From the NCBI RefSeq assembly GCF_004339675.1, contig NZ_SLVM01000003.1:1-64000 (forward strand): a stretch of DNA of 64,000 bases. Direction: 5' to 3'. The DNA is from Rhodovulum steppense (GTDB taxonomy: Bacteria; Pseudomonadota; Alphaproteobacteria; Rhodobacterales; Rhodobacteraceae). The translations under genes and the position numbers were made by a program. The notes under the pieces are model-generated. The model made no database searches. It was not told the DNA's origin and saw nothing but the letters and a program-made list of their open reading frames with translations. Positions 37,295-39,929 of this stretch are shown here, piece after piece (the first letter of the stretch is position 1; the number at the start of each line of letters is the position of its first letter).

Positions 37295-37768
37295 CTACCA
37301 GTTGCCGCGCCGACCGGAAACATACGCGGGCAGATCGACCACGGGCGCGGCGGTTCCGGCTCCCTTCAACCAGCACATTCTGCGTTTGTTCGGCAGGGGA
37401 TGCGACGACCGCGCAAACGTGAAGGCTGCGCATTGGCTGTCCGCCTCGCAGGCCCGCACGCAGTCCCCAAGACCGACAACGCGAAATGCCGCGTAATCGC
37501 CGCCGGGGATGTCGACCGCATCGCGAATTTGCAGCATGTCGCTGGACATCAGGTCGTCGCCCGCAAGAAATTCCTCGCGATCCTCGGCGGTCAGCAGCCA
37601 ACCATCGTCGTCCAGCGTGGGCGGGTGGGCCGGGGCGGCGACTTGTTGCCGTGCGACCCGGTCTTTCCTTCGGTAGTCGCGATAGACCGATCCCGCCAGC
37701 GCGACCACGGCGCTGCCAAGCGCGAAACCCGCGATGCCGGACAGAAGCTCGCGCCGGGTCAGACTCAT
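37295..37768 (-). CDS. Tat-signal PAN/Apple-domain protein
   Basis: 157 residues. The N-terminus SLTRRELLSG followed by a hydrophobic stretch is a twin-arginine signal (TRRxLL). After a linker, residues about 85-155 form a PAN/Apple-like domain: GDYAAFRVVGLGDCVRACEA, QCAAFTFAR and the MCWLK strand provide the expected four cysteines. PAN domains bind proteins or sugars. The start overlaps the GMC oxidoreductase stop by four bases (ATGA), so the two are translationally coupled, and this small protein may help export the flavoprotein, as Tat small subunits do for other GMC dehydrogenases. Confidence 0.75.
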   Translation of the reverse strand: MSLTRRELLSGIAGFALGSAVVALAGSVYRDYRRKDRVARQQVAAPAHPPTLDDDGWLLTAEDREEFLAGDDLMSSDMLQIRDAVDIPGGDYAAFRVVGLGDCVRACEADSQCAAFTFARSSHPLPNKRRMCWLKGAGTAAPVVDLPAYVSGRRGNW

Positions 37769-39150
37769 GCCGCATCCGCCAGATGGTCGCCAAGACGCGC
37801 CGCCAGCGCCATGATCGTCAGGGTAGGGTTCTCGTAACCGCCGGTAGCGAAGACCGAAGACCCCGCGACGAAGAGATTGCGATAGCCATGCACACGACAG
37901 TCGCGGTTTACCACGCTGCGTCGCGGGTCGTCGCCCATGCGCGTTGTTCCCATTATATGGCCTCCGCCGGTTACACCGCGGTAAAGCGCGTCATTGAGGA
38001 TTCGCAGCCGCCCCGGTCCGTTGGCGACCAGCCGCCCGCCAAGCGCCTCGAGGCAAAGATCGATCGCCCGCAGGTCGTCCGCGCCGATGACACAACGGGC
38101 GCGCAGTCGTGGCAGGCCCGCGGGGTCACGGCCTTCGCCGATGGTGAGGCGGTTCACCGGATCTGCGGCCATTTCGGACCGGACGTTCAGGAAAAAGCTC
38201 CGGGCCGCGGGGCCGATGCGATCCAGCAGAAAAACCTCGTGCGGATCGTTCAGGTTGGGCGCGGTTTCGACCCATTCGACCGAGACATCGCGCCCGCCGA
38301 TCTGCGCGTGAAGCGAGTCGTCTGGCACGAGCGCGGGCACCTGCGCCCCGAATGGCTCCGGCGCTTCGGGCAGCGCCAGTTCCGACGGCACGACGACCCG
38401 GCCGCAATGGTAGGAATGCGGATGCTCCATCAGATACCGGCCGACCTGATCTGCCTCGTTCCCGACCGCTGCACTTGTGCCATCGGTCGAGGCCAGCAGG
38501 ATCTGGGCATTGCCCACCCCCCCGGCCGCGAGCACGATAGACTGGGTCTCGGCGACGCGGGCCTCGATCCTCCCTCCGCCCGGAGACCATATCGCGATGC
38601 CATCGACACCCTGCCGGTCCAGCCGCGGCCGCAGTCCGGCAAGCGTGGTGTTCAGGGCGATGTCGATCATGGGATCGTCCTCGGGCACACCGAATTCCGG
38701 ATCGCCAAAATGGACCGGCGGCTCGGTCGAGAAAGGACGCAGCCGGAACCCGTCAAGGTGATCCTGCTGGAATGTCAAAAATGTCGGATCGCGGCCAAGG
38801 ATGCGGGCAGCGATCCTATAATAGGGGTCAAGTTCGGCCCGACCGATCGGCCAGTGGGCCATGTTCCGGTCAAGAAGCGGAAGGCAGAAGCCCTGCCAAG
38901 CCCCCGAAGTGCCGCCAAGAGCCCGAATCCAGTGCGATGACCAGTGGATCCCGTCAAAATGTCCCCGGCCATACACCGACGAGAAGGCGGACTGAACCCC
39001 GGCGTCATAGTCGCGTCCACCGCTTTCGAGGATCAAAACACGCCTACCCCGCTGGGCAAGCTGAAGGGCAAGGGTCGTTCCCGCGGGACCGGAGCCGACG
39101 ATGAACACATCGTAGCGTTCAAGATTGGCGTCCCGGATCTCGACGAACAT
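37765..39150 (-). CDS. GMC family FAD-dependent oxidoreductase
   Basis: 461 residues. The FAD-binding Rossmann motif is FIVGSGPAGTTLALQLAQRG (about 16-35), ending in LESGG; GGTSGAWQG, AAGGVGNAQILLAS and the C-terminal YRNLFVAGSSVFATGGYENP are typical of GMC alcohol/sugar dehydrogenases. There is no signal peptide of its own. It is coupled to the Tat-PAN gene downstream, recalling gluconate/fructose/sorbitol dehydrogenases in which the small subunit carries the Tat signal; no cytochrome subunit is adjacent. Substrate unknown. Confidence 0.85.
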   Translation of the reverse strand: MFVEIRDANLERYDVFIVGSGPAGTTLALQLAQRGRRVLILESGGRDYDAGVQSAFSSVYGRGHFDGIHWSSHWIRALGGTSGAWQGFCLPLLDRNMAHWPIGRAELDPYYRIAARILGRDPTFLTFQQDHLDGFRLRPFSTEPPVHFGDPEFGVPEDDPMIDIALNTTLAGLRPRLDRQGVDGIAIWSPGGGRIEARVAETQSIVLAAGGVGNAQILLASTDGTSAAVGNEADQVGRYLMEHPHSYHCGRVVVPSELALPEAPEPFGAQVPALVPDDSLHAQIGGRDVSVEWVETAPNLNDPHEVFLLDRIGPAARSFFLNVRSEMAADPVNRLTIGEGRDPAGLPRLRARCVIGADDLRAIDLCLEALGGRLVANGPGRLRILNDALYRGVTGGGHIMGTTRMGDDPRRSVVNRDCRVHGYRNLFVAGSSVFATGGYENPTLTIMALAARLGDHLADAA

Positions 39151-39236: not shown

Positions 39237-39929
39237 CTAGGCCACCGCCGCCATTTCCAGCGCGGCGGCGCAATGCACCTGCACCGTGTCGAAGACCGGC
39301 ATCGGCACATTGCCCGCATGCAGCAGCAGGCCGACCTCGGTGCAACCCAGGATCAGGCAATCGGCGCCGCGCTTGGCCAGCCGCATCGCGATGTCCTCAT
39401 AGGCGGTGCGGCTGTCGTCGCGGATCACGTCGCGGCAAAGCTCGTCATAGATGATCCGGTGCGTGGTCGCGCGGTCCTCGGGGCCGGGCAGCATCGGCGA
39501 CAGGCCCGCCGCGCGCAGCCGGTCGGTGTAGAAGCTTTGCTCCATCGTGTAGGCGGTGGCCATCAGGCCCGGCCGGGACAACCCCGCCGCCCGGATCGCC
39601 GCGGCGGTCGCGTCGGCGATATGCAGGAACGGGATCGTGACGCCCGCCATCATCGGCCCGGCCAGCTTGTGCATGGTGTTGGTGGCCAGGATCAGCAGCG
39701 AAGCACCCCCCGCCTGCAAGGCGCGCGCCTCGCGGTTCAGCAGACGGCCTGCCGCCTCCCAGTCGCCTGCGGCCTGCATCCGCTCGACCCCTGCGAAATC
39801 GAGCGAGCGGATCAGCAGTTCGGCCGAATGCAGCCCGCCCAGCCTTTCGCGCGCGCCGCGGTTCAGCGCGTCGTAATAAAGCGCGGTCGAGGCGGCGGAC
39901 ATACCGCCGAGAATGCCGATGGTCTTCAT
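39237..39929 (-). CDS. Aspartate/glutamate racemase family protein
   Basis: 230 residues, the YgeA/RacD type. TIGILGGMSAASTALYYDAL starts the protein. The first catalytic site reads ILATNTMHKL, with Thr and no Cys, while the second GCTEVGLLL has the cysteine. One-cysteine members are known among L-Asp/Glu racemases of the E. coli YgeA kind, so it is probably active. PLP-independent, cytoplasmic. Substrate may be Asp, Glu or another amino acid. Confidence 0.88.
   Translation of the reverse strand: MKTIGILGGMSAASTALYYDALNRGARERLGGLHSAELLIRSLDFAGVERMQAAGDWEAAGRLLNREARALQAGGASLLILATNTMHKLAGPMMAGVTIPFLHIADATAAAIRAAGLSRPGLMATAYTMEQSFYTDRLRAAGLSPMLPGPEDRATTHRIIYDELCRDVIRDDSRTAYEDIAMRLAKRGADCLILGCTEVGLLLHAGNVPMPVFDTVQVHCAAALEMAAVA

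Follow-up and report, generated by a model that had tools for sequence, protein, structure and literature searches.

The paired genes and their products

The 64,000-nucleotide stretch of Rhodovulum steppense DNA analysed here, hereafter the window, encodes on its minus strand a GMC-family flavoprotein and, overlapping it downstream, a small protein with a Tat-type N-terminus followed by a PAN domain, which is referred to as the Tat-PAN partner (Table 1). The positions that the original prediction had given for both genes are exact, as is the twin-arginine motif of the downstream one, and the two reading frames share an ATGA.

Table 1. Features of the GMC/Tat-PAN gene pair in window coordinates
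Feature	Position	Strand	Basis
GMC-family flavoprotein, 461 aa, without signal peptide	37765..39150	(-)	GMC_oxred_C and FAD-binding family matches
FAD dinucleotide-binding segment of GMC, residues 13-44	39019..39114	(-)	FAD_binding_2 and related matches
GMC Ala84, at the BcGDH His105 position	38899..38901	(-)	alignment with FAD-GDH
GMC_oxred_C, residues 332-450, with His398 and Asn441	37801..38157	(-)	profile match; aligned to BcGDH C-terminal region
4-base ATGA shared by the GMC stop and the partner start	37765..37768	(-)	sequence; -4 overlap also in L025, L026
Tat-PAN partner, 157 aa	37295..37768	(-)	PAN_4 6.4e-12; orthologues adjoin orthologous GMC in L025, L026
Partner twin-arginine signal, residues 1-26, TRRELL and hydrophobic stretch	37691..37768	(-)	sequence; RR invariant in three orthologues
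GW motif DDGWLLTAEDRE, residues 54-65, proposed GMC-docking element	37574..37609	(-)	PSSM score 20.8
PAN_4 domain, residues 85-135, cysteines 103/107/113/132	37364..37516	(-)	profile match

Profile search matched the flavoprotein to GMC_oxred_C (3.2e-22) and to FAD-binding families, and GMC_oxred_N gave no match at E 0.1 in this compact enzyme. The nearest PDB entries by sequence are FAD-glucose dehydrogenase (FAD-GDH, 2.7e-25) and fructose dehydrogenase (FDH, 3.5e-18). In the alignment with the Burkholderia FAD-GDH (BcGDH), His398 and Asn441 likely represent the His/Asn catalytic pair, which is His476/Asn519 in BcGDH; His105 of BcGDH is a possible covalent FAD link (PMC6719666). The window GMC lacks this histidine and therefore should bind FAD without that link. 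Its five cysteines (89/249/353/366/418) are scattered. No N-terminal hydrophobic stretch precedes the FAD-binding motif, and just five codons separate an in-frame stop from the GMC ATG, so a longer start hiding a signal is excluded. The enzyme is thus without a signal peptide, as had been claimed.

The partner begins with MSLTRRELLSGIAGFALGSAVVALAG, which reads as a twin-arginine motif and then a hydrophobic stretch. Its signal class and cleavage were judged from sequence by eye: a possible AxA site lies at A23-L24-A25, and a basic stretch, YRDYRRKDRVAR, comes after the signal. The genome encodes TatC, and an RR signal on only one of two adjoining proteins in such a genome is the configuration expected of a Tat hitchhiker pair. 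Behind the signal, PAN_4 (PF14295; 45.8 bits against a cut-off of 27) and PAN_1, which sits just at its cut-off, are the only Pfam families to reach cut-off, and the protein also matches the Apple domains of factor XI and plasma kallikrein by sequence. The predicted cysteine-containing PAN/Apple-like domain is therefore present, with four cysteines, and sets the partner, as foreseen, apart from the known GMC small subunits. PAN_4 is what it shares with other PAN/Apple-domain proteins; those of this bacterial family are mostly long alpha-2-macroglobulin-like ORFs, unlike the 157-aa partner. The one further PAN_4 match of the genome (L004, G000:C2:164813-164923) falls in the N-terminal part of such an ORF, of 1839 aa.

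The genome has no second GMC of this kind, the sole other match at E 0.001 reaching 49 bits. An aspartate/glutamate racemase-like gene (39237-39929(-)) is found 86 bases upstream in the same orientation, and the two may be co-transcribed. A cytochrome subunit had been stated to be missing nearby, and indeed no CxxCH occurs in the called genes (simple-script gene calls) of window positions 24000-52000, nor in those of L025-L027, three loci with related GMCs described below.

Distribution of the pair and a wider set of partners

A scan of the species-genome collection with the GMC, which reaches close relatives only, returned 20 loci. The same overlapping GMC and Tat-PAN pair was found in a Paracoccaceae MAG (L025; GMC 55%, small protein 54% identity) and in an uncultured Roseobacter (L026; 52% and 46%). 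Chance is excluded for the pair by this conservation, which extends past close relatives, to three genomes found in all. The PAN form is rare and patchy. At E 1e-5, the Tat-PAN alignment matched 115 of 394 family genomes, most of them owing to ORFs of about 1800-2100 aa; full-length matches came only from the window and the L025 genome, and the next-best match (E 1.2e-10) covered the PAN part only. Among 29 other PAN loci of the family that were inspected, a GMC was in the stretch only at L046, which belongs to the L025 genome. A search of 299 phylum genomes at E 1e-10 gave the PAN form from the window alone, and one of 90 genomes of the L026 family at 1e-15 gave it from L026 alone. Samples of 169 genomes from the phylum of L027 and 131 from that of L028 gave no match near the L027 score, and in Microvirga, where the PAN protein has its sole plasmid match, the surrounding 6 kb contain no annotated GMC. 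Within the genus (16 genomes, own included), the GMC query matched five at E 1e-20, none of the four others better than 2.9e-44.

Two more distant GMC relatives adjoin other small proteins. In an Acidobacteria MAG (L027, GMC 43%), the downstream gene (L027:7367-7990) encodes a Tat-type N-terminus followed by DGWLVT, behind which comes a different, C-terminal domain of roughly 130 residues with no Pfam match above cut-off (best E 0.13). In a Chloroflexi MAG (L028, GMC 32%), yet another small RR protein is found. The motif common to such partners is [VIL][DN]GW[VIL]Lxxx[DE]; the window protein has DDGWLLTAED ahead of PAN, its first motif residue being D in place of the usual V, I or L. Scored with a PSSM built from 41 non-PAN partners, the window motif reached 20.8, against 18.0 for the best of 55,365 background positions and 19.7 for the best of 2000 shuffles. 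The motifs of L025 and L026 scored 13.8 and 12.0, levels that 1 and 5 of the 55,365 background positions reached, respectively.

We gathered 96 different GMC ORFs as relatives from whole genomes and divided them by a score of at least 400 against a profile built from 12 of the GMCs, which 59 passed, the other 37 scoring lower. Of the 59, 42 have next to them a Tat-type partner that bears the motif (40 with the W and 2 degenerate; hand-curated). Nearly always, the partner overlaps the GMC or lies, on either side, within a few dozen bases of it. The remaining 17 have no such adjoining partner, two being at contig edges; when the 12 profile members, all partnered, are excluded, 30 of 47 GMCs are partnered. 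Before curation, a loose pattern, in which W follows any residue and precedes two hydrophobic-type residues, had picked 41 of the 59 loci; curation removed the unrelated ORFs of L010, L109, and L128 and added L028, L108, L110, and L124 from an earlier listing. The lower-scoring group holds one clear partner (L084) and one degenerate one (L087). There, the loose pattern hit 12 of the 37 loci (2 and 10 in two bands), mostly through LWYS/LWYL stretches of another small-protein family, which were set aside. L084 (G411:C16) has a GMC ORF of 939 aa with an extra C-terminal part, and its micro-partner is upstream.

Four partner kinds were distinguished: micro, helical, PAN, and the L027 type, whose label 'beta' is a guess from sequence. 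Micro-partners, whose length of about 41-79 aa varies with the start codon taken, consist of signal and motif, while helical partners measure 111-174 aa when their start is clear and have the motif close to the C-terminus. L120 was labelled helical from a distant start; a nearer start makes it a 58-aa micro-partner. The distance from motif start to C-terminus is 8-44 residues in undecorated partners, 100-105 in the PAN proteins, and 147 in L027, and the PAN and L027 domains are hence read as C-terminal additions. PAN, in particular, looks like an add-on behind a putative docking motif. Among loci found later, when the motif was already fixed, six of seven inspected (L181, L184, L185, L187, L188, L189, and L190, the four on plasmids being drawn from 38 plasmid hits) have a motif-bearing partner ORF. 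These partners occur in the phylum of L027, Roseobacter, Skermanella, and Halomonas, and the Skermanella records call them hypothetical protein. At L187 the annotated start falls after the RR, and the ORF extends upstream to an RR start; at L189, where the GMC is annotated in two pieces, no motif partner was seen.

Seventeen helical-type partners matched no Pfam or NCBIfam family at E 0.01, by which a known small-subunit family was rejected for them, and no match among PDB profiles was meaningful, the best being to a designed protein (E 0.26). GW-motif Tat-type GMC partners apparently form an unnamed set. The window pair shows all that delimits it, namely a Tat-type N-terminus, the motif, and an adjoining compact GMC; the PAN protein is best regarded as one architecture within this broader set, whose members have the motif in common and differ in what surrounds it. 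The literature search agrees with the original prediction, which named no described system like the pair: among the matches listed, with subscription journals and preprints mostly outside coverage, neither a GMC-PAN pair nor GW-motif partners are described.

The partner motif also resembles a conserved segment of the GMC itself, SGWPIxRxELxPYY (residues about 99-116), and MAFFT aligned the two. Mimicry was rejected, as the profile-profile comparison, which pointed to that segment too, gave a probability of 0.9% with E 0.065, which is not significant.

Partner type and FAD-linking position on the GMC tree

A GMC tree of 65 rows was built with six partner labels, including 4 outgroup rows and 17 labelled 'none'; its bootstrap is not quite settled. 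The three PAN GMCs form one clade (100/97) with L027 as sister (100/98), and L028 joins them on a long branch (98/80). All 17 micro-partner GMCs fall in one group of 20 (99/94), together with two unpartnered ones and L120, and the 21 helical-partner GMCs are grouped with 15 unpartnered ones (82/96). Partner architecture needs 14 changes on the tree compared with 34.6 when shuffled, and none of 200 shuffles was as low. Partner type thus follows the GMC tree, as would be expected of a working pair.

The FAD-linking histidine is distributed unevenly among these enzymes. Outside the PAN/beta clade, 39 of 40 partnered GMCs have it (two of the 40 score under 400), the exception being L028. It is present in 4 of the 17 unpartnered GMCs, in 14 of the other 35 lower-scoring GMCs, and in none of the four GMCs of the PAN/beta clade. 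With relatedness ignored, the difference between partnered and unpartnered GMCs has a Fisher p of 1e-8, or 2e-6 when the PAN/beta clade is counted as partnered. The later-found GMC of L185 has Arg at this position although it is partnered. The pattern suggests that the histidine marks export among GMC relatives. Having none, the window GMC may be unlike other partnered GMCs.

This tree and residue pattern bears on whether the two genes are merely co-transcribed, the PAN protein being an independent Tat substrate and the GMC remaining cytoplasmic. We regard that as improbable. The lack of a partner beside 17 of 59 GMC relatives and the weak docking in the AlphaFold2 chains described below would fit it, but the GW motif is common to partners differing widely in length and domain content, a partner adjoins its GMC on either side and is of a type that follows the tree, and the histidine is kept by nearly all partnered GMCs outside the PAN/beta clade and is mostly missing from unpartnered ones.

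Comparison with dehydrogenase complexes and the proposed export route

Fructose dehydrogenase is exported through a small Tat-bearing partner. The Burkholderia FAD-GDH likewise has a Tat hitchhiker small subunit, and its description states that this subunit is needed for proper folding and secretion of the catalytic subunit, that its C-terminal region, including Gly157-Phe158-Trp159, packs on the catalytic subunit, and that a 3Fe-4S cluster is held by Cys212/213/218/222 (PMC6719666). The window pair resembles Burkholderia FAD-GDH and Gluconobacter fructose dehydrogenase in having a signal-less GMC, an adjoining small Tat-bearing partner, and the His/Asn pair. It differs in that complexes of this type are characterised by a 3Fe-4S cysteine cluster, a multihaem cytochrome c subunit, and a small subunit of known family, whereas the window GMC has no such cluster, no CxxCH occurs among the called neighbours, and the partner matches no small-subunit family and carries PAN. 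Lacking all three of these features, the window system is not a member of the GDH/FDH complex family. By analogy, it probably works like a complex of that type. The Gly-Phe-Trp packing reported for BcGDH parallels the W motif near the C-terminus of partners, and we propose that the GW stretch takes the part played by the C-terminal region of the BcGDH small subunit.

The pairs at L029-L031, L038, and L039, which we take to be of the FAD-sorbitol-dehydrogenase type, also place a Tat-type small protein beside the GMC, in their case upstream. They differ in forming a separate clade (the 4 outgroup rows, 100/100) with a different small protein, and the loose motif search gave only LWYS/LWYL-type stretches at these loci.

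AlphaFold2 was run on the read-through partner-GMC chains of L100 and L107, with the stop read as Ser; the window pair does not lie in one frame. Whole-chain mean pLDDT was 90.7 (L100) and 87.3 (L107), the GMC parts being mostly confident. The closest folds to both GMC chains are the fructose dehydrogenase large subunit and the Burkholderia FAD-glucose dehydrogenase alpha subunit, with Z of 42 and 36, respectively, for L107. At the motif, confidence is middling and the models disagree: L100 has a helix (10-residue blocks of 64 and 78) and L107 two strands (block of 72). Docking of the GW motif on the GMC is thus not confirmed by these models.

Taken with the conserved pairing, these comparisons make it fairly probable, in our judgement, that the two genes constitute a Tat hitchhiker system in which the PAN protein binds the GMC and carries it through the Tat pore. 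The GMC would fold and acquire its FAD while still in the cytoplasm; the PAN protein, translated together with it, would bind it via the segment around DGWLLTAED, and the twin-arginine signal of the PAN protein would take it through the Tat pore. The pair would remain together in the periplasm, with the signal either cleaved or left uncleaved as a membrane anchor; a disulfide-held PAN domain would adjoin the enzyme and offer it a glycan or protein ligand, and the GMC would oxidise a sugar-like alcohol there. The hitchhiker export first put forward for this pair is therefore favoured by the fold matches and the BcGDH precedent, and the PAN partner at its centre is best placed as one architecture of the GW-motif set. 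The adhesion or ligand-binding function that the original prediction gave to PAN is a putative one.

Two variants of the partner's role were weighed. Export might still occur in trans with anchoring as the partner's lasting role, which seems rather unlikely; many micro-partners amount to about an RR signal and the motif and would be nearly gone if cleaved, and the basic stretch after the window signal would suit an anchor, against which stands the possible AxA site. It is improbable that the partner is instead a maturation factor or assembly chaperone of the GMC, in which case PAN would serve to sense or inhibit and would not bind a substrate polymer: this would accord with the folding role stated for the BcGDH small subunit (PMC6719666), but a four-cysteine PAN domain should suit the periplasm better, and no family match of the partner points to a cofactor site.

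Extending the hitchhiker reading, we tentatively suggest, at somewhat less than even odds, that bacteria of several phyla share a set of trans-acting Tat signals, small proteins each dedicated to one compact GMC and many consisting of scarcely more than the signal and the GW element, and that this element is also a platform for C-terminal domains (PAN here, another in Acidobacteria) that give the enzyme binding specificity. If so, a few dozen residues would suffice to send a folded 50-kDa flavoenzyme through Tat in trans, and the same escort could also bear a targeting domain, surface polysaccharide being an example of specificity given by the escort. The pairs could then serve as a simple model for studying the acceptance of hitchhikers by Tat. 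The motif would moreover assign signal-less GMC enzymes to the periplasm and be a cue to polysaccharide-modifying enzymes in some clusters.

Polysaccharide-type gene context is absent at the window and L025. The L026 pair adjoins genes for a UDP-sugar dehydrogenase, an epimerase, a glycosyltransferase, and FkbM, and L027 adjoins FAD_binding_4 and short-chain dehydrogenase genes. That L026 and, by family tally and by eye, several relatives lie in polysaccharide-type clusters suggests a glycan as the PAN ligand; since the window and L025 do not, this context was kept out of the main argument. A tally of neighbour families, made with no control set on 125 of 148 listed genes (omitting the 16 at the PAN/beta loci, four in number, and 7 more), has Epimerase as the largest, with 5 of the 125 genes, among the 25 commonest of 136 families. 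GMC pairs among epimerases, flippases, and sugar transferases were noted, mostly by eye, at L144, L146-L148, L150, L155, L163, and L164, and L155 also has an EpsH-type exosortase by Pfam.
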